This document shows, piece after piece, positions 10,300 to 60,649 of a stretch of DNA of 64,000 nt. The DNA comes from Nautilus pompilius (Eukaryota > Mollusca > Cephalopoda > Nautilida > Nautilidae): contig JACATO010000059.1 in the NCBI GenBank assembly GCA_018389105.1, positions 806,001 through 870,000 on the forward strand. Reading direction: 5' to 3'. The position numbers and the translations under genes are program-made. The notes below the pieces were generated by a model that saw only the letters and a program-made list of their open reading frames with translations, did not search any database and was not told where the DNA came from. How positions within the stretch are numbered: the first letter of the stretch is position 1; each line of letters begins with the position of its first letter.

Positions 10300-12019
10300 A
10301 CCGTTAGGGAGAAAGGCTAGATGGAAGCAAGTGGCAACAAAATTAAAATAAAATCAACCCAGCCACTCAACCACCCGGCACTAAGCAGGAAGATAAGAAT
10401 AATAGTTTGGTTTATTTCAAAGGAAGTTCTCTCCTAATGAGACCAGATATTCTGATTTTCTTGATGTTTGCTTGACAGAATTTTAGAAATATGAAGGTTA
10501 TAATGAACATAATGACCCCTTATTGATTATGGGAAAACGACTATTTGGAAAACACCTGTGATTTTATTTACACAGAATATGACACCTGTTGGAAATACTT
10601 GAATAAATTTTAAATAGTCTGGTACTTTTTCACATAGTACCCATTTTTTGGACCATACTTTTTTCCAAAACTGTTTCCAGGTAATAAAGTCCATCACCGT
10701 ATTACAGCATTCCTCACATGAATTTTTTTAGAGATTACACACTTTATAAGGAACTTTATGATAATTATGTTTTCTAAACAAACTATTCATGGTAGATTCA
10801 TATACAGTGCAGCTACCTGTGGAGTAATAATGATGGTTTTGTTGTTAATCAGTAGAGATATCAATATATTTTTTATAAATAAAATTACACGTTTGTCTGA
10901 ATACTATTTTTTTTTTGGAATTAGGGCTAATTACTTTTTGTATGAACCCTGTACTTTAATGGCTTTTGTTGCGTGTGTTGTGTGTTGTGGATTTAAGCAC
11001 TTTCCTCCAAAGTTTACTGTGGTGCAAGACAAGAATTTATTGATAAACTCAGAATCTCAGTTTAATGTTGGGCATGTGTAGCTGTTGATCCACAAATTAT
11101 ATGTTTAGACCTAATAAATCATTAGACATGTGATAGTTTAAATAAAAATATATTTTTATTTTAAACATTCTAAAGTAAACAGTGTCTTTTTTATCCTTCA
11201 TTAAAAAATGAATTTGGCTCATCACCCGAAATATTTCGTCATGCTGAACCTTGGCAGTGCAAGGCACATTCAGCCCAATTTGCAGTGTATCTCCATAGTG
11301 GCTGATAACAGGCTCTTTGAAGTTCTCCAATCATGATATCTGTGTATTAAAAACAAATTGTGAGAAGTTTTCAATTAAATCTGTCTGGTGATTCCTCTCT
11401 TTGCATTCTCTTGAATAAGATGTTTTACCAACCAGATCAGTTCTGTAATCTGCAGTATTCTATACTACTGAATAAGATGTCAGTAAGAGGGTCATAAAAT
11501 TACTTTAAACATCTGAATGTTAGCTTTGGAAAGCCTGTGAAACATATTGGTAGGAAATGTTTGTTTAGGGAGTGGTGGTTGGTTTGTGGCACTGATGTAA
11601 TCAAGGGACTATCACAGGTTGAATATTTAACTCCAAAGAAATCACTTAAATACTGTTGGACTATCATTCAAGTATTTGTTTAAACCTGAATATTATGTAG
11701 GGCAGACAGTCTCTGTGGGTACTTTTCTAAGGTAGGCTTTCCACAGATTTCCCAGTGTAATTCATCTTTCAATTTGTTGTTTATCATGGAATAAAGAGCA
11801 GAGCCAGATAAGAGAGAACTGTGCAAAGCAATTACAAACCTTTTAATTAAATATTTAACTATGAAAAAGGGATACACCTGTCATCTAACAGTGTAGAAGA
11901 AATACCAAGATCTCTCGGTCTACCATTTTTCAATAAATTTGGATTTCTTGGTCAATTCTATACTTCATTTTTATGTGCAAGCAAGTGAAAAGTTACCCTT
12001 AGAGCATCCAATATGTACC
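10300..12019. other. Intronic sequence, nothing recognised
   Basis: No gene recognised. The 107-codon open frame at 10758-11081 is low-complexity and hydrophobic and matches nothing known to me. Confidence 0.4.
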
Positions 12020-14743: not shown

Positions 14744-15034
14744 TACCGTGTTATCCTGCATACATTTGCATGTGAGTGTAAGTGGAATTCTTCTCATTTA
14801 TAGGATTTCAGAAATTGAAAGAACGACCCGGATACACTGGAATGCAGGTGTAATTTCAATTTACCAAAATATTAAAAAAATAAATGTAGCATTTAAACAT
14901 GAAATGTGCAAAAAGGTAATTAATTGTAAGTAAGATAAAGTAAAACCAAAAAAATTATTGCATTCTGATTGTTTTTATGTATAAATGAGTGCACAAGGTT
15001 ATTCAGGTTACTAAATCTAAATTACTCAATGCCA

Positions 15035-16400
15035 TCTAGTCGTCATTGTCCCCTTCACCATTGTCGTCTAGCGAATTGTCATTGTCTCCTTCATCATTGT
15101 CAATGGAGTGATCATCTCCATCCGTCCGTCCTCCTCACTTTGATCCGACTGCTCATCATCGTTGATCTCCCTCATTTCTCAAGATACTCATCGACTTCTT
15201 CAATAAAGTCATTTGCTACACAGTGGCTTTTAATAGTCTCGTGTAAACTTTCAAGTTCATCCTTGTACTCGATATATCTTTGTTTGAATCTGTGCACTAT
15301 TATTTGTCAGTTGCAACTTCCTTCCACGCTGAATCAGCCCACTGAGTAACGTCTCATAGGAAACTCGTTTTCTCTTCTCCGTGTGAGTAAACTGTATTCC
15401 CCCATCATCGAGCCATTGATTCCAATGATCCTGCATTGCATTCAAACGGTTTGTTGATGTGTGTATCGAGGAATTGCAGCAAAGGTGTCATTCCTGAACG
15501 AATTAGCTTGGTATTGACATGATGCTTCTTCATGGTAGCACCCAACACATCGCTTTTGTGAGACGTAGTAGAATCCATTATGAGCAATGAAGACTCTGTG
15601 TTGAAAAATTCCCCTGGTCGTCTTGATACAATTTTTGGTACTTATGTGTTGTTATACATTAACTCATTTGTCATTGACCCTCCTCTAGAGCTGAGGACCA
15701 CAACCCCATATAGGATATTTTCCTTTTGGTGCATTCTTCAGATTCTTAAATATCAAAAATGGAGGCAATCGGAATGGTTTCCATTTGTTTCAAACCTGCT
15801 GCATACCTGCAGTCAATACTGCTGTATAACGTAACTTTTCATACCTGGTAGGTTTCTGCCACACTGATTTCACACCTTTGAAGTCATATGTATGAGAGGC
15901 TGGCAGATCAAAATAGCATGGCGTTTTGTCCATGTTCATATTGACCCCATATTTTAAACTTTTCATGTTGTCAAGAAACTGCTCACAAAGCTCAGGGGCA
16001 TTGTCAGGTACTCTTTGTCCACCACTGCTAACACAATGCTTAACAAGTCGGTTTCTAAGCAGAAACCTTAGGTAACCTTGGGTGAGGGAACAAATTGTTG
16101 AGTTTGCTCTCCAGGGTACATCTTTGCGAATAGAGTGCACACTTTTCTACGGATCAATTTTTCACTCAAATTTTCACACTTTTCTCTCTTGTATATATCT
16201 AATGAGTTCTGTGTCAAGAAGCGGATACATGGCAGCTCTGTTACACATTCTGATTTGAACTCAGGAGTTCATATCCTTTTGGTTGATGGCACTTCTGATT
16301 AAATCTGCTTGTTTAACCCACTGCCGCAAATTCTGGCAAGTGATCTAGGAAACAGAGCAAAAGGAACAGTATGAACCAATTTCTAGAAGTAGAAGAACTT
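15035..16400 (-). pseudogene. pogo/Tigger-type (DDE_1) transposase, broken
   Basis: Read on the minus strand from 16400: an HTH-like segment with LRQWVKQADLIRSAINQ, then LIRYIQERK. Next is GYLRFLLRNRLVKH and, at about 15950, NMDKTPCYFDLPASHTYDFK followed by EKLRYTAVLTAG; NMD supplies the first catalytic Asp. Near 15587-15560, MLIMDSTTSHKSDV carries the second Asp. At about 15500-15450, GMTPLLQFLDTHINKPFE carries the third Asp in the LDxxxNKPF motif. A Trp-containing segment (NQWLDDGG) and an acidic tail end the protein near 15035. All three catalytic Asp codons can still be read, but frameshifts and stops separate them, so this copy cannot make an intact enzyme. Confidence 0.82.
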
Positions 16401-16933
16401 GTGTGTGTTTGTGTGCGAGTCCCTTCATTTTATGTACAGATGTTTGCTTTTAATTTACTAGTTTATATCTTTTTTCTTTTATATCACAGTTTTAAAATTA
16501 TTTTATTGTAGATTTTATGGTTTGGTTTTAATTAGCTATACATACACAAATATATAAGCATCTATAGCTACATAGTTTTTAAACAGTTAAATAAAGAAAT
16601 AATAATAATAACATAATACACAAGTTTACATACATTGAGTTCTCTCACTGTTTTACTAATATTCCCCATCATTTTCTTTAAGAAGATTGAGTGCTTTCCA
16701 CTTAAAGTTGATGGGAAACTCTCTTCATGTATTGTACATCCTTTCACTGGTTTAAACTTCAGCAACTCAGATTTGCTCAGTATTTTTTTCAATGAACACA
16801 GTTCAAATATCCAATCGTTGGATTAGAACAGAAATTTGAATGAGCATTCATTGATTTGAGGAAGGAAAAAAGTTTATCCAATCCCTCAATAGACAATCAC
16901 AAAAACATGCAAACCAGTTTTAAGGTAAAGTAA

Positions 16934-17290
16934 ATGCCTTTCCTTCTAAAAACATTACGGAAAATGGCACGATACCAAGATTGTTGCCCCTATTCATTTC
17001 ATTTTGATGGTTTTGTTACTGGTCACCATATCTACCAATGTTCTTGGAATCCAGTCATCGGTGAAACACTAACAACCCAAAGAGAACCTGAAAATCCTCA
17101 TGACAAATATGCAGTAAGTATTTTAAGGAATGATCAAATCATTGGCCACATCCTAGGGACATATCTACAACATTTTCATATATTCTTTGTGTGAGCAGGA
17201 ATTTTGAATGCGAAAGTTACAGGGAGAATAAGTAGCATAGGAGGCTAGAAGTTCCAATCGCATGTTATGTGGAAAGGACCCAGAAGCCAA
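16934..17290 (+). pseudogene. HIRAN-domain-like passenger ORF inside the pogo-like element
   Basis: An 86-codon + strand frame reads FHFDGFVTGHHIYQCSWNPV, then IGETLTTQREPENPHDKYAV and SILRNDQIIGHILG. The order GHH-Y, W-PVIGE, REPxNPHDxYAV, GxIVGH is the core of HIRAN domains (single-stranded DNA 3'-end binding in HLTF and relatives). It is also the core of a family of small uncharacterised invertebrate proteins that I remember with this same sequence. After the TGA at 17192 the match continues in other frames (KVTGRISS, then LEVP), so the copy is frameshifted. It is transcribed away from the pogo transposase and lies inside the same terminal repeats. Function in transposition is unknown. Confidence 0.65.
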
Positions 17291-17437
17291 TGGAAAATGA
17301 TCAAATGTTAATAAATGAATATTTTTAAAGATGTAAATATAAATAAATCAAAGTGTTTTCTTTTTCTAAAAAAATTAATTGGATACACCTGCATGCAAGT
17401 ATAACTGAGTTGCAGGTGCATGCGGAGTAACACGGTA

Positions 17438-26645: not shown

Positions 26646-27953
26646 CGAGGTCTGTTGAAAAAGTATCCGACCTTAGGCTGGGAAAAAAAATTCCGTACTT
26701 GGTGGGGTTCATTTGCTAATCCCCATTGAAGTAGGCCCCTTGTGCCTACATACACTTAGCCCAGTGATCCTTACACTGTTCGAAGCCCGTCTGGAATGCT
26801 TTGTCCGGAATGGCTCTCAGCTCCGCCGTCGCATTCCACATGATGTTCTCTCGGCTCTCAAAGTGGGAGTCTTTCAGTGGCATCATTATTTTTGGGAACA
26901 ACCAGAAGTCAGAAGGAGTCATGTCTGGAGAGTATGGAGCCTGGCGAATGAGCGAAATGCCTTTTTTGCCAAGAAACCTTGGATCAGCTGCGATGAATGA
27001 GCCGGGGCGTTGTCATGATGCAGCTGCCAATTTTGCGAGGCCCACAGATCCGGTCTCTTGCGCCAAACTGCATCATGAAGATACCAGAGGACTTCCTGAT
27101 GGTACTCCTTTGTAACTGTTTGTCCTTCTGGTGCGTATTCGTGATGCACAACGCCTTGGTAGTAGAAGAAAACAGTCAGCATTACCTTGATTTTTCTCCG
27201 GACCTTGGCGATATTGGGTGCTTCCACTGTGATGACTGAGCTTTGGTTTTCGGGTCGTACCCATACACCCACGTCTCATCTCCAGTTATCATGGTATTCT
27301 GGAACTCAGGATCCCTGTTGGCAGTATCCAGCAGGTCCTGCGCAACCTCAAGATGAAGTTGTTGTTCCTGAGAAAGCAGCTTGGGCACAAATTTCGCTGC
27401 CACTCTGCACAAGCCCAAATCCTCCTTTAAAATTGCATGTGTAGAATCTTTACTGATCCCAACCTTGTCACAAATTTCGTGTACCTTCAAACGACAATCC
27501 TCCATTATCAAGGTCCGCACTTTCTCGATAACAACTGCATTGCTTCTTGTTGACGGCCTCCTGGAATGCTGGTCACTCTCCACCGATGTGCGGCCATCTT
27601 TGAACCTGTTGTACCATTCTTTTATTTGGGAACACCCATGGCATTGTCACCAAAAGCCTGTTGAATTTTGCGAATTAGTTTCCGCTTGGGTATCTCCAAG
27701 CTTTTGGCAAAACTTGATGCAAGATCGTTGCTTCACATGTTCAGTCATCACGGGTGAAATGAAAATGTGACTAGTAAGTAGTACAGCGCCTCACATGCTG
27801 GCTGCCTGACAGTGACTGATGCATCCGGCAAGCCCACCAAAAACTACGCATGTGCATGAAGGCAAGTGGCTCCACTATGCACACTTTTGCCTCCCTAACG
27901 CCATTACTTCCCACGGGAAAAAATAAAGTTGGATACTTTTTCGACAGACCTCG
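26646..27953 (-). mobile_element. mariner transposon, near full length
   Basis: The left end reads CGAGGTCTGTTGAAAAAGTA; the right end on the minus strand reads CGAGGTCTGTCGAAAAAGTA. These are long TIRs with a single difference in the first 20 bases. The 1.3-kb length and single transposase gene are standard for mariner. TA precedes the left end (26644-26645); the right flank is TT, so the TA duplication has probably mutated on that side. Confidence 0.9.
26716..27748 (-). pseudogene. mariner transposase, full-length remnant with frameshifts
   Basis: The minus-strand frame starts with MTEHVKQRSCIKFCQKLG at 27748 and passes through IKEWYNRFKDGRTSVESD (HTH-1 end). It continues into a 133-codon open stretch with VHEICDKVGISKDSTHAILK (HTH-2) and ITGDETWVYGYDPKTKAQSS, whose GDE has the first catalytic Asp. 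The second is in WQLHHDNAPAHSSQ at about 27000. The third is in YSPDMTPSDFWLFPK near 26910-26950, read in another frame. The end is GAYFNGD and a TAG at 26716-26718. All catalytic residues of the D,D34D triad remain, but at least four frame changes (two near 27640-27700, one near 27240, one in the A run near 26970) inactivate it. The protein would be about 345 residues, the normal family length. Confidence 0.9.
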
Positions 27954-31689: not shown

Positions 31690-34600
31690 ATTTGAAAATA
31701 AAAAAAATAGGTTAAATAATCACAACAATATTGAAAAAATGTAGATTTCTGTGTTAAAGCAGAGAATACTGGAAAAACTTAAAAACTATAGTAAAGGATA
31801 TATTTTTTTAAATATTATAAATTAAAGATAGATTCAACCCATACTAGGCTAGCCACTTTACTGACAGAAATACTTCAAGGTTAATTAACTTAACTGACTT
31901 TTGATATATATAAAGGTGAAGGGAGAGAATTTAGTTTTAAAACAATTTAATGTATAATTGCTAATGATTGCTGGTTCATTTAGTTTCAACAAAAGAGTAA
32001 GAAATGCTTAATTTCTTTTCTTGGTCTCTTTGCTAGGACTTATTTAAATAAGAAAATAGCAGCAATAAATTTCTAAAACTTAAAAGCTACAATAATAAAT
32101 TTTGTTTGGTGTATTATGTAATCTATATAAATCCTAAAGTAATCAAATGTCACACTGATCACTTGCATAAAAATCATGTTTTCAGCAATCTGTTGATTGT
32201 AGCCTGTGGCCATTGTCTTTTGAAAGTCATCTTTATCCCCCTTAAACATTGTTCCATTCTAATGGAGTGCAGTCTTATCTGGCACATTACGCATTCCCTC
32301 TCAGTGGTCATGATTAATTCATCTTTGACCACTGATTGCCATACTTTGTTTAGGCAACTATCTAAATTTGCCTTTTATCAGTTTCACTGGCACAAGCAGT
32401 TCAAATACATGCACAATCACCGAAAAACTGCTGTTTTTTTAAAAATCTACTACAGTATGGAGGTTATAAATACTGACTGCAGTATTATTTTCTGTTTATA
32501 TTTTTTGACATCCATTACTAGTGCACACACATTTACAATTGTACACTATATATAATTTAAATTTGTTATATTTTATTTACCATTATATGTTTTAGCAGCA
32601 GGTAGTCAGCCATCAGACTAATTTCTAACTTAACAAGATAATTTTTTTTCACTTAGACTATTCCGAGATAATTTTTTTTAATGCTTATGTTCATTTTTGG
32701 TATATTTTTATTTAATATTTCTGTATTTTATTGATCAGTTACTTGGGAAACTTCATCAGATTACCATTGGGAAAGAAGGCTGTGCAGTCTCATGGTAGTG
32801 CCAAGTACATGCCGCTTTTTGAAACTTCAAAAACGATAATAGCAAAGAAAGTGAAAAGTACATGATTACTGCAGTAATGTAATAAAAAATAAGAAAGAAA
32901 TTGAGTCGTTTTTTGCTAGCTATACAAGTACTACAGAACAGCCATTTATTTTCTATAATTATCATAGAGAGCCTTTTGATTGACTTCCCGTGTTAACCCT
33001 GACTTTTCTCATATGGCTGTTGCAGGCAGGTCTGCCTTTGTTTGGCTGACCCATCAGACTAGACATCTGGTTCTCACTACTCCAGATGATGCTGGATAGT
33101 AGGGCCACCATCTATGACTGTTGATGGTTTAGTTGAGATCTCTGATTATATATTAACATTATGTTCTTGATAAAAACTCACCGACAAAATATCATTTCTA
33201 TTTTTCAGTTTGTTTGTACGAAAGCAGCACATTAAATTCCATCTTTTTTTTTTAATCCTTAGAAATTATTTTTTTTTAAGTTTTTTAAGAAATTTGAATG
33301 AAGTCTTTGTTCTGGTTAAGTTATTTTATTGTAGTAGTTTATACACAGTGAAACCATCAGTAGTTCTATCTCCAATTATATTGTTGCTTTAATACAATAT
33401 CAGTTTCTGTAATAGTGAATAGAAATGAATCTTCTAGTGTTTTTGGAACATGGAACAACATTAAGGCTCTTTGTAGGTAGTACTTTGTAGAAAGATTATT
33501 CTTTTAAATGTCCACTTTTTGCAGAATCATCTTTTCATATTTTTCTCTGTATACTATACAACCAAAAGAGAATATTATAATTCTTCATGGTTCTTATCAA
33601 GTGTTCTCTAAGCAGGTGAGAAAAGTGTAATGTTTTTATTTCAAGTACCAAATGATTGTTCAAAATGAGGTGTGAATGTGGAAATATTTCATTAGATTAA
33701 GGTAGCCATTTACATACTAAGTGTGACTAATGGCTTATGGGATCTCAAGTCGTTATCAGGCTGGAGATTTCTCAAGTTACCTAAGTTTGGATTACATGGG
33801 GAGAATTTTGACTAACTAGAAGCTAAGTAGACAAAAAAGACTTGTGTATCTTCAAAAGGTATCTATTATACTCATCATTATTATCCAAAAGCTGGTGAAT
33901 TTGCAAGCATTGACAAATTTGAGAAATTGTTACTTAATCATGAAAATCTCTTGGAAGTCATACATAGTGTATATTTAAAAAAAGACTTGATATTTCTTGA
34001 GATCAGAAATACATTTATAAGAGATAGATAAAGTATTTTGATAGCCATTGTAGTATTGGTTGTGAGTTCATTTGAAAAGCAGTTGTTAGTTTGCTGATGG
34101 CCTAACTGCCAATAAAATTGCATCTGTTGACATTTAGGTAATTTAGTTGCTATAACTCTAATCTAACTTCAAGCATTTCTCAGACCAGATAGTCAGATAT
34201 GCAAGTTCTGACTTTTGACTATCCTAATATCTTAATAAAATTGCAAGATTAAAATTTAATTTGATGGCTTCTTACTTTTTAAGAGATGAATTTGTAGTGA
34301 GGAATGCTTTTTGTAAGAATGGCTATGTTCTGGTTATACGATTTATTGGCTTTCACCATAAGAATGGGCAATCATGGAACAATTGTGTTCTGACATATCT
34401 TTGTAACCTTGGTTCAAGTCAGATGGCTTGGTTTATTTTTGCTAGTCATCTGATGAAGATACCAGTTGTGAAATCTGTAGAAAACCAGCAATTGGTTAAA
34501 AATAAAACTGATTTTAAAATAACTATTTTTTATATCTGCTAAAGTAGAAACTTGATATTAATAAGCAAACACGAATAATCACAGGTTTAACAAAATACCA

Positions 34601-50766: not shown

Positions 50767-51840
50767 GGTCGTTACAAAAGTTTTGTCAGTTTTTATATTA
50801 TGTTAATTTGTGTTTAATTTTTTTCAAGCTTGTGAAGGTGTATGTGGATAAGTTATATATCATTTTGTAGTGTGTGCTTTGGCATACATTATACAAAACC
50901 TACCTTTTTAGAAATCATTAAATGGATATTTGTTTCAGGGTTCTGAGTGAAGCAGGGACAGAAAAGTCTTTCATGCCATTTTGCTTCACGAGTTCAAACC
51001 AGGCCACAGAGTGAGGCCACTCGTAACATTGAGCAAGTATGGGACGAGGACACAGCAGATGAGTGCACAGTACAACAATGGTTTGCAAAGTTTTGGTCAG
51101 GAGATGTGAGCCTGGAAGATAAGGAATGTAGCGGATGTCGTTCCAGTTGTGATGACGACCGTCTGAAAGCCTCAGTTGAAGCTGGTCCAAGCAAACCACT
51201 GCGAGAAATTGCTAGAGAGCTCGACGTAAGCACCGCAACTGTTTCTCAGCATCTTGACACAATTGGCCAGATGAAAAAGCTTGACAAGTGGGTGCCTCAC
51301 AAGTTTAATGACCAACAACAAAATCGTTGAATGTAGATCTGCTCTCTGCTTGTCATAAGAAACAAAACCTGGCGAAACCATCACAGCAGAAAGATACTGT
51401 CATGAATTAAATGTTCATCAGAAACTCTCCCAACGACAACCGGCATTGGTGAATCGAAGAGACCCAATCCTGCTTCACGATGATGCTTGTCCTCACGTTG
51501 CAAAAGTGACTTCAGAAACTAAACTTGTTGGGGTACCAAGTTCTCCCTCATCAGCCTATTCACCAGACCTTTCTCCCACAAACTACCATCTCTTCAAACA
51601 CCTCGACAGTTTCCTCCATATGAAATCCTTTTCTAACTAAGCAGCAAATGAAACTGCCTTCCAACAGTTTATCAACTCCAGAAATCCAGATTTTTTTCAA
51701 AATGGTATAAATGCGCTTGTAATTTGTTGGCAGAAGTGTATTGATGGTAATGGAACTTAGATTAACAAACTTCACCTTCAGCAACAATATGAAGTCTCAT
51801 CGTTGCGGTAAAAAAACCCGACAAAACTTTTGTAACAACC
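50767..51840 (+). mobile_element. mariner transposon, Hsmar1/SETMAR-like, internally deleted
   Basis: The left end reads GGTCGTTACAAAAGTTTTGT; the right end on the minus strand reads GGTTGTTACAAAAGTTTTGT, one difference in 20. The right flank is TA and the left flank CA, so one TA duplication appears mutated. The element is 1.07 kb instead of the usual 1.3 kb because part of the transposase gene is missing. Confidence 0.9.
50950..51765 (+). pseudogene. Hsmar1-like mariner transposase lacking the first catalytic region
   Basis: The frame opens with a degraded HTH-1 (EATRNIEQVWDEDTADECTV, then QQWFAKFWSGDVSLED) and continues into KPLREIARELDVSTATVSQH, then LDTIGQMKKLDKWVPHKFND (HTH-2 and linker). 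At about 51365 it jumps, through an AAAC junction, from the RNK of the linker to KPGETITAERYC, then PALVNRRDPILLHDDACPHV. About 85 residues, including the CDE-W first catalytic Asp, are missing. The second Asp is present (LLHDD). The third site reads YSPDLSPTNYHLFKHLD, with Asn where active mariners have Asp. The tail is FQQFINSRNPDFFQNGINAL. Stops and frame changes are also present. Confidence 0.88.
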
Positions 51841-56900: not shown

Positions 56901-59727
56901 AATAAATAAGGATCTTTAGTAAAAGCATCTAATTTTGAGATTACTGATAAATAATTATCAAAGGAGCATTAATTCTTGTGAATCTATTATTTCTTTTAAA
57001 TATAAGAACAAGAGATAAAATGATGGGTGGTTAGGTGGTGAGCCACGCATGATGGTTGGCCAGCTTTCAGTGATGTAGGTAGACTGAGGTTGTGCCCATG
57101 CATAAGATATAGAAGCTCAATGCAAATTAAAAAGGATTATATTAAACACTTCTGTAGCCCAGGAAGCTGCTAGTGTATATTGTTTCTGGAGTAACAGGAT
57201 TCTTTTACATAATAGCAATTTTATTTCTTTTATAAAACTGAATTTTTGTACAAGAAAGAGATGATAATGCAGTTTTTTTTTCCCATTTTTATTTAGCATT
57301 TACTAGTGAGGAACATCCACAGCTTTCGAATGGATAAAATTTATTGCCAGGGTTGGAATAATGAGTATTTTATGTTTACCTAGGAACAGAAAATATCTAT
57401 ATGTATGTAGATTTTTCTCTTTTTTAAATTTGTAATAAAATTTTGTTCTGATGTTTTACACAGGATATTTAGAAATAGATTGAAACATTTTATCCTATTT
57501 ATTATTATTTTCTTTTTTAGTTTCACGGATCTGCTATGATTTTAATCTATTGACAAGTAACTGGTAAAAGGAATACACTGGGTTTCTAGCTGATACTAGA
57601 TCTGTTTTAAAATGGCGCTGTTCATCTGAAAATGGAGTTTTAAATTTATTCTTTGGACAGAGATGTTAACAAGTTTCTCTTTACAGTAAAATTTATTGAC
57701 AGATCATACATGGCAGTAAGACCATTTATGATTCTCATTCTCTCGACACTTAAATCTGTTTTTGACATTTTCATTCCCAGACAATAGACTTTGTAAATAT
57801 TTTAGATGTTAATGCTAATTTGGTGTTGATGGTCACTATCCATTTGCTAATGAGATATTTTCGAATTTCCATTTGATATAAATACAAATCCTCTGTTGAT
57901 CTTCTGATAAAATGCTCTTTGGGAATTGAGCATTCTTCACCTATAGTACCAATTATTTCTAATTTGAAATGTCAAACATTTATGAAAAAATTGATGTTTG
58001 TGCAGTTATGGCAGTACTGTCAATCTTGAGGGGTAATAGGGTTATTGAGGATGAAATTGTTTCATATTTGCCAGATAGCAAAGAAGTGGCTCTCCTTCCC
58101 ATAATTTAGATAATGCCTTCTAAAACTATTTTATCTTTTTATCTCTTTGATCTTTGGTGGTGATCTGCTATGATGTTAACAGATGGATGAAAAATTAAGT
58201 TTAGGTATTTTCTTAAGATCAGTATAATATAATTATCTACTGCATCTTGTAGTTGTAGCGCTCTTGTGGTGGAGGTAGGTGAAGATAACTCATTAATTGC
58301 AAATGCTTCATTTTTAACATACTTTCTTTAAGGTTTTTTCCTTTGGTATATTTATTGTGATGAATAGGGTTACTAAATTTAGAGAAAAAATATACCGGTG
58401 TGCCATAAATCTAAAAATACGCGAAAAGAGGCCATAAAAAATTTTGCTAAATGTTTTCATTGGGCTTTAGATCAGTTCATTTAGATCAGCTTTCCATGGT
58501 ATGCTTTGAAATTTTCCATTGTAAGGTGATGTGTGTTTCTTAAATATAACTACCCACAATACTCTGTGAATTCAAGGTGAATGAACCAGATTTTTTCATT
58601 TTCTGTTTGTATCAAAATACTGCTTGCCAGACATTTTAGAGAAAGGTAGGAAATTATTGTGTTTATGTAACTGCTAACTATTTGAAACTTTTTGTTTGCA
58701 TAAATTGAAATTTTTATTAAAGAATTAAAAGGAAGAAAAAAAAATACATTGTGCATGCTACTTATCAGGAGATTAGTCTGTTGAATAAAAATGTAACTTC
58801 ACCAGGAAGAAAAACATTTTGAATTCTGATCTGTCTTCACTCTGAATGAATGGTTGCAATGTAATCTGATACACAAGGAACTTTGATAAGGAAATCATAT
58901 GAAAATTTGTAAATTATATTTTTTAAAAAAATTCTAAAAAAAAAAAATGTAAATTGAGTTTACTTGATATAGCTTAAAGATTAACAGGACTTAAAAGTTC
59001 AGACTTTTTAAAATTTACACTGGTTTGGAGGAATGATATGTTTGATTGCATAAACTAGACAGTCTACCATTTCCTATCACTTTATTATTAGTCATTAGAC
59101 TAACTAATGAACTTATATCGTAGAACTTTTCCTGTTTTTTTCCACCAGGGCTAGCAACTGTTTTGTTGTGCCATGATGTTAAGTTGCAGTAAAACACCTA
59201 TTACAAATTAGTATCATTGCACACTGGAATAGTTATTTTCAGGATCAAGCTTTCGGGAAGACAACAGGAAAATATCTCAGAAATGGAGGTTCTCTAGTTA
59301 GTTGGATTACTAATAAGGTGATGGAAGATGCTTGAAGTGACACTCTACTTTCTATTCTTATTTTGTTTAATAGCTGAACTGTTCATTTTCATAGAATTTT
59401 GACCATAACATTGTTTGAGCCAAGATCAGTTAATTAGTTGTAACAATGCAGCTCAAAGAAAAAAAAAAGATGCTTTTCTCAGGCATAGGGATACAGATGT
59501 CTATCTTGATTTTGGATTTGTTACATGATATGATGTTGATTTGTCAGAGTTAGTTGAAGACTGTGGGTCTAGGTATGAGTTGTGATGACTTTTCAATAAA
59601 TTCTTATCTCTTCATTCTCCTAATGTATATGGATGGAGACAATAGTAGTGAGCATTGGTTATCTTTCACTTTTCATTTTAGTTGTGAGTAAATAGTTTAT
59701 TTCACTGTAACTCATTTCCATTTCCAG
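53912..59727 (+). other. CASK intron, 5.8 kb
   Basis: GT-AG intron between the catalytic-loop exon and the activation-segment exon. I see no transposon ORF, terminal repeat or RNA gene. Simple A and T runs occur (for example 58922-58946). Confidence 0.65.
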
Positions 59728-59903
59728 GTCGAATAGGGACACCTCACTTCATGGCCCCAGAAGTGGTCAGCAGGGAGCTATATGGGAAGCCTGTGGATGT
59801 ATGGGGATGTGGAGTTCTGTTGTTTATACTGCTTGGTGGCTATCCACCATTTTATGGAACAAAAGACAGACTTTTCGAGATGATTACGAAAGGAATTTAC
59901 CAT
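59728..59903 (+). CDS. CASK: CASK kinase-domain exon (activation segment to alpha-G), internal
   Basis: The acceptor AG is at 59726-59727 after a T/C-rich tract, and the donor GTAAGT starts at 59904. The first two bases complete a Gly codon. The translation is [13 protein letters not shown], then [17 protein letters not shown], then [20 protein letters not shown] and [11 protein letters not shown] closes the activation segment, and the Asp of DVWGCG is the alpha-F anchor. The length is 176 bases and it ends in phase 0. Compared with remembered CASK sequences it has a few unusual residues (SRELYG for the usual xREPYG, LGGYPP for LSGxLP), but the frame is open throughout. Confidence 0.94.
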
Positions 59904-60649
59904 GTAAGTAATACAGCAATGGATTTTCAAAGTTGGATTGAGTGCAACTTGTTCCTACAGTTTTATTTTATTCATTTTGTACTAGTAAGAAAAGAATTAA
60001 ATGGTAACTTTTGGATTAGTGTATCAGCAAGAAAATCACAGAAAAAATAATTTATGCAAAAACTGGATTGGAAGGCTGCTTCCTGAATTGGTGGTAAACT
60101 AAATTCCACATATCTCTAGCTGCAAAATTCTACTAAAAAATCCCTTTGATGTGTTTAACATAGTCTACTATACAGTATATTTATTACTATTGTAAAACAC
60201 CAGCAACTCATTGTGTGCAGCTTTGGGCCAGGGGTGGGGTAAAACAAGGAATTATTTTTCTGTGTACAGTGCAAAAATGCTCAAAAGTATGAGCTCTGCT
60301 GGTGTTGCTCATCATTAACTTTCAAATCACAGCATTGCTGCTCTGTTTTATTACCTTATATCAAAATCTCTAAAAATGGCTGAAATGCCTATTTAATGAG
60401 TTTGATTTGGTGCAATAATTTACTGGTTATTAGCTTTCACACTGGTTGATTTTTCTGAAACATCGGTGTCCAGACTAATAAAGTGGATATCATACGTGTA
60501 ATTATATAGCTGCAATTTCTCTCTAAGATATCAGCTGAGTCCTGATATCTCTAACCTCGATCACCATAATAAGGCATAATTAGTACATTTGCTCTTTTTC
60601 TGTTTTGACCAAAACAATAGATTTGGTGTTTGTGTTGTTGTTGCTATAG
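59904..60649 (+). other. CASK intron, 0.75 kb
   Basis: GT-AG intron, the smallest between exons in this window; nothing recognised in it. Confidence 0.7.

Follow-up and report, generated by a model that had tools for sequence, protein, structure and literature searches.

Transposases of the pogo superfamily cut DNA at the terminal repeats of their elements. To our knowledge, pogo elements are one-gene elements, and the protection of their cut ends and the hand-over of these ends to host repair are poorly known. The described groups (Passer, Tigger, pogoR, Lemi, and Fot) have TA targets, terminal inverted repeats, HTH_Tnp_Tc5 and DDE_1 domains, and a catalytic spacing of DD29-56D, and the accessible part of a survey of pogo diversity names no second gene, only fusions in the domesticated CENPB, POGK, and POGZ (PMC7386202). 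The terms "HIRAN," "second ORF" (open reading frame), and "two ORFs" do not occur in the main text of that survey, and HIRAN is not mentioned in the main text of another survey of pogo diversity (PMC7325037). Here, we describe a 64,000-nucleotide stretch of the Nautilus pompilius genome (contig JACATO010000059.1, positions 806,001 to 870,000; the window, numbered from its first letter) that contains a decayed pogo-type element of ∼2.69 kb (14746 to 17435). The element has two genes within common terminal repeats, a transposase and a divergent, stand-alone HIRAN gene. Like the described groups, its family has TA targets, terminal inverted repeats, and HTH_Tnp_Tc5 and DDE_1 matches, and its DD35D spacing, counted by eye in sister copy L035, falls within the range of the superfamily; it differs in the second gene. 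A preliminary description of the locus, made from the sequence alone, knew of no pogo element with this architecture, and we found none in the open-access literature, including the accessible parts of PMC3482391, PMC2292703, and PMC11090510; Repbase lay outside this survey, and a description there is possible.

The longest inverted repeat between window positions 12000 and 20000 has arms at 14744 to 14777 and 17404 to 17437 that are 74% complementary, giving imperfect terminal repeats of ∼32 bp with TA on both flanks. The transposase gene takes up the left and middle of the element on the minus strand, and the HIRAN gene lies to its right on the plus strand, inward of the right repeat and with little space between the two divergent genes. 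Given the positions of the repeats (Table 1) and their TA flanks, the HIRAN ORF is inside the right terminus, in agreement with the preliminary description, which had placed it with a divergent pogo transposase between the same repeats. An ORF external to the element is ruled out by these positions and by the element copies found in the genome. Of the ends that could be resolved in family copies, TA flanked 26 of 28 on the 5′ side and 33 of 39 on the 3′ side, and the end octamers were mostly CCGTGTTA, CCATGTTA, or CTGTGTTA. The window copy itself is old and damaged. An isolated CCGTGTTA octamer at window positions 32988 to 32995 has no partner in the window and no blastn match to the element.

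All genome searches were made in the window's own 728-Mb assembly. A query with the 2.69-kb element gave at least 61 matches, with spanning copies at 77 to 82% DNA identity (among the best 40 of 122 candidates). We retrieved 38 places matching this query and further copies via a HIRAN protein query, which gave 125 matches at 102 places. From these 102 places, 89 distinct HIRAN loci were classed (C855, C640, C122, C893, C970, and C2099 are among those outside the set); 35 had transposase sequence, 49 had a junction joining element positions 470 and 2091, and 5 were unclear.

Co-occurrence of the two genes was assessed with a transposase fragment (L034) as the query, and the best 150 of 297 candidates merged to 121 loci. 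We set both thresholds ourselves, a family border at 46% identity and a reach of 4.5 kb for HIRAN. Within this set, HIRAN was found on the opposite strand, 0.7 to 2.5 kb away, at 40 of the 44 family transposase loci (≥46% identity) and at none of the 77 other, more distant pogo loci. Repeat-bearing copies do contain the HIRAN gene, and the association on which the preliminary description had made its proposal depend extends well beyond the window. Two of the four family exceptions (C1071 and C123) have HIRAN remnants; C328 has no HIRAN trace within the 901 bases examined, and C188 sits at the 46% identity border. All of the best 40 of 110 left-end candidates have a HIRAN place no more than 3.4 kb away. 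A separate right-end DNA search gave no match at the three HIRAN-less loci among its best 40 of 110 candidates, which is uninformative at that depth. Stretches L057 and L061 are without a HIRAN segment because HIRAN lies 2.5 kb away on contig C84, apparently past a nested insertion. The two copies there (C84:1192014-1195384 and C84:1551819-1555239; L057, L061, and L106) appear to be interrupted by another element at position ∼1855, and L057 bears a separate transposase N terminus of Tc5/CENP-B type (HTH_Tnp_Tc5, 3.8e-13).

The window ORF at 16934 to 17194 (plus strand) matches Pfam HIRAN just under the cut-off of 24.7 bits (E value, 6.8e-5; 23.1 bits) and has homologues across the family; the HIRAN-type ORF first noted at this site is present. 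Translation probably begins at the ATG at 16964, since an upstream ATG is missing in most other copies. The extent originally given, 16934 to 17290, is roughly right; the single open frame is not, as the reading frame changes more than once after IIGHI (approximately residue 63). Stops fall at 17192 to 17194, where the open stretch ends, and at 17326 to 17328, and a homologous 3′ part continues to approximately 17340. The full-length copy L048 has an uninterrupted frame of 127 amino acids (35.3 bits), and five of the nine family pieces scanned with Pfam reached the cut-off, the other four being L090 (32.2 bits), L081 (29.5 bits), L056 (28.1 bits), and L086 (27.4 bits). Below it were L085 (23.2 bits), the window copy, and L091 (15.1 bits), and L093 gave no match. 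The per-column majority of the 89 distinct copies is an open frame of 127 codons, with many stops in the other two forward frames. A chance ORF is ruled out by the number of genome matches, the open majority frame, and the Pfam scores. Structure prediction, which the preliminary description had proposed as a check, bore out the assignment: an AlphaFold model of the L048 protein matches the fold of the human HLTF HIRAN domain (Foldseek, VIA). Going by this model, the element's protein has the HIRAN OB-type fold.

The window transposase frame is broken, and its fragment has no Pfam match. Its first catalytic D lies in NMDKTPCYFD, which corresponds to NMDET in sister copies. Among the latter, L035 matches DDE_1 (4.1e-9, 36.7 bits) and L056 matches HTH_Tnp_Tc5 (5.3e-7, 29.9 bits); a Pfam scan of pieces L034 and L064 found neither domain. 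A pogo-like transposase is supported by these two domain matches. Family fragments are 33% and 30% identical (E values, 2e-19 and 2e-23; pairwise comparisons only) to the pogo-type transposase L138 on C291. A predicted intron of 274 to 358 bp with a GTATGT-type donor would lie between exon 1, with the first helix-turn-helix, and the motif ITxQNLQ. This arrangement was found in 12 of 39 stretches scanned, the window copy plus 11 more (two are identical), with a loose sequence pattern and a QNL-motif filter. As to the N-terminal helix-turn-helix of psq/Brinker/CENP-B type that characterizes the superfamily, the L062 piece after splicing matches HTH_28 (3.3e-6), with BrkDBD under its cut-off (0.0073). 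For the window copy, the 5′ end of exon 2 follows from the splice model, and its 3′ end is approximate (Table 1).

Table 1. Features of the pogo-type element in the window (coordinates are window positions).
Feature	Position	Strand	Basis
TA target-site duplication, left	14744..14745		Read directly
Left terminal inverted repeat, starting CCGTGTTA	14746..14777	+	Inverted-repeat search
Decayed second exon of the transposase, with HTH_Tnp_Tc5 and DDE regions	15040..16344	-	Minus-strand frames; Pfam matches of sister copies
Segment deleted in the commonest derivative (element 471-2090), retained in the window copy	15216..16835		Junction comparison
Transposase intron of 289 bp (predicted; GTATGT donor and CTAG acceptor)	16345..16633	-	Splice pattern
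First exon of the transposase (predicted), with the first helix-turn-helix; upstream boundary provisional	16634..16740	-	Splice pattern
HIRAN gene, start ATG 16964, frame broken in the window copy	16964..17340	+	Frames, Pfam, intact copy L048
Right terminal inverted repeat	17404..17435	-	Inverted-repeat search
TA target-site duplication, right	17436..17437		Read directly

The commonest derivative has kept both terminal repeats and the HIRAN gene and lacks the transposase, and its 49 loci share one junction within alignment error. For full-length and derivative copies alike, the class majority has an open HIRAN frame; the two majorities differ at two positions, both synonymous, and copies diverge from their own class majority by 8.3% (full length) and 7.8% (derivative). 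Among the best 40 of 110 left ends, there were no short HIRAN-less derivatives with intact ends; shorter ones would rank lower and so escape this search. The preliminary description had called the HIRAN gene a passenger. Because the gene occurs throughout the family and persists in the transposase-less derivative, this label may be too weak. The derivative could also have kept HIRAN for reasons in cis, if what matters is the right 600 bp of the element (subterminal transposase-binding sites or a promoter) rather than the protein. A single junction at 49 of 89 loci is what one deletion followed by spread would leave; the stop-free majority frame of the derivative points the other way, though it proves only that the gene was intact at the time of spread. 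We regard this account as unlikely.

According to the accessible part of PMC11237066, HLTF contains a HIRAN domain that binds 3′ ends of single-stranded DNA; HLTF requires this domain for stripping Cas9 off a cut end, and the isolated domain inhibits the reaction. The explanation that we favor for the locus as a whole, to which we give a probability of roughly 0.4, is a two-gene pogo element whose HIRAN protein acts on cut 3′ ends. The transposase would cut at the terminal repeats and leave 3′-OH ends. Free HIRAN protein would then bind single-stranded 3′ ends exposed at the element ends or at the donor break, and the bound protein could shield the post-cleavage complex or steer repair of the break. 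Since the isolated HLTF domain competes with full-length HLTF and blocks nuclease removal, the transposon's protein could be a competing end cap and deny host motors of the HLTF type access to the cut complex. Action in trans would fit the spread of derivatives. The two-gene architecture taken by itself is almost certain. The mechanism taken by itself, in which a small HIRAN protein would shield or channel 3′ ends at cut sites, is a tentative proposal, as is the help with end processing or excision-gap repair suggested in the preliminary description. A more far-reaching version, combining a self-made pogo end cap against HLTF-type motors, HIRAN-only derivatives mobilized in trans, and a transposon origin for many invertebrate HIRAN genes, seems doubtful. 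The protein may instead be a regulator or DNA-binding cofactor, for example at a shared divergent promoter, and not a binder of 3′ ends. The divergent orientation and narrow spacing of the two genes would suit such a role, and the 3′-end binding of the HLTF domain speaks against it (PMC11237066, accessible part); we consider it highly improbable.

Several observations weigh against an action of the HIRAN protein on cut ends. In an alignment with the HLTF contact motif (provisional HLTF numbering), N91 and D94 are kept, N90 is replaced by E, and the tyrosine that we take to be Tyr93 is replaced by H, so that 3′-end binding by the element's protein cannot be taken for granted. The remaining pogo families in this genome manage without HIRAN; a member of one of them on C291 has an intact transposase frame of 441 amino acids (DDE_1, 4.4e-33; BrkDBD; HTH_Tnp_Tc5) and no HIRAN within the 1.9 kb examined. 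Most HIRAN copies are broken, with 26 of 79 classed copies stop-free in the L048 frame. Comparison of shared with private variants in 83 HIRAN copies (6 of the 89 rows, L053, L100, L124, L126, L128, L132, were dropped) initially gave an excess of synonymous shared variants (P = 0.0014), with codon positions even. This signal of constraint was gone once transitions and transversions were split (P = 0.24 to 0.75), and shifted frames behaved alike. The identical test on the transposase (37 copies) gave no signal either. Because the transposase was necessarily selected at one time, the test has no power and decides nothing for HIRAN; median divergence from the family majority is 8%, and the copies behave as one neutral burst, within which the test cannot discriminate.

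The undetectable constraint and the HIRAN-free pogo families would be expected if a HIRAN sequence of the host or of another source had entered the space between the terminal repeats in a single capture and had no job in transposition. Such a functionless rider is possible and nearly as likely as the end-cap mechanism. Against it stand the compact divergent layout, the majority frame that is open in both classes, and the lack of a visible host donor: scanning the genome with Pfam HIRAN yielded 31 matches, of which 26 exceeded the cut-off, and every one of the 31 overlaps a place belonging to the element family. With no match outside the family, we reject a host gene visible in this genome as the source of a recent HIRAN capture; an intron-split host domain, such as that of HLTF, could escape the search. 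We retain the two-gene element with a HIRAN protein that may act on cut 3′ ends as the best explanation.

The pogo-type family that includes the C291 copy (C291:38831, C317:990406, C317:1167434, and others) has open transposase frames of up to 441 to 443 amino acids and several places of equal score, and it is apparently younger than the HIRAN family. Elsewhere in the window, a mariner/Tc1-like transposase remnant lies on the minus strand at 26919 to 27646 (Transposase_1, 2.1e-11), split over two frames, and an open frame on the plus strand at 50947 to 51330 with a Mos1-type HTH_48 match (8.1e-6) is another mariner-type remnant. A protein kinase exon is present at 59688 to 60050 on the plus strand (Pkinase, 7.4e-14); by eye, it is possibly CASK-like. 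Neither Rfam nor a tRNA scan gave a match in the window.

We also looked for relatives of the HIRAN protein outside the nautilus genome. Viral contigs gave 31 pattern matches, none confirmed as relatives, and a second search there found none; phages gave only three partial matches (E values, 0.05 to 0.07), and PHROGs gave only weak ones (best, 0.0093). A motif search recovered 21 bacterial loci and one viral contig (L001 to L022) with prokaryotic HIRAN-type ORFs, none in a pogo element. Pfam HIRAN matched all 10 of these 22 ORFs that were scanned, and some of the 22 are much longer than one domain. The small HIRAN proteins in this set come from varied bacterial groups and the viral contig. They have EPxNPHDxYAV by construction, since this motif was the search pattern; NPHD is therefore present in the prokaryotic proteins too.

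A pogo element with its own putative 3′-end-binding protein would make the step of end protection testable, and the human relative of this protein has DNA-bound structures. Some of the HIRAN genes tallied in gene catalogues may belong to transposons, as all 31 matches found here do. The preliminary description had proposed that many small HIRAN-like proteins annotated as host genes in invertebrates may be this second transposon gene, and the overlap of all 31 Pfam matches with the element family, within this one genome, agrees with that idea. We know of no prokaryotic stand-alone HIRAN protein in a pogo-type element. Those compared here (lp_0118, 3K2Y, and the ORFs of L001 to L022) are prokaryotic, unlike the element's protein. 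The HIRAN domain of HLTF (4S0N, 4XZF, 4XZG, 6KCS, and 5BNH) is ∼20% identical to the element's protein, which differs in being stand-alone and transposon encoded. The Tec/TBE elements of ciliates, as presented in the accessible part of PMC7325037, are related to Tc1/mariner and, like the window family, have more than one ORF; the second ORF of Tec encodes a site-specific recombinase, whereas that of the window family encodes a HIRAN protein.
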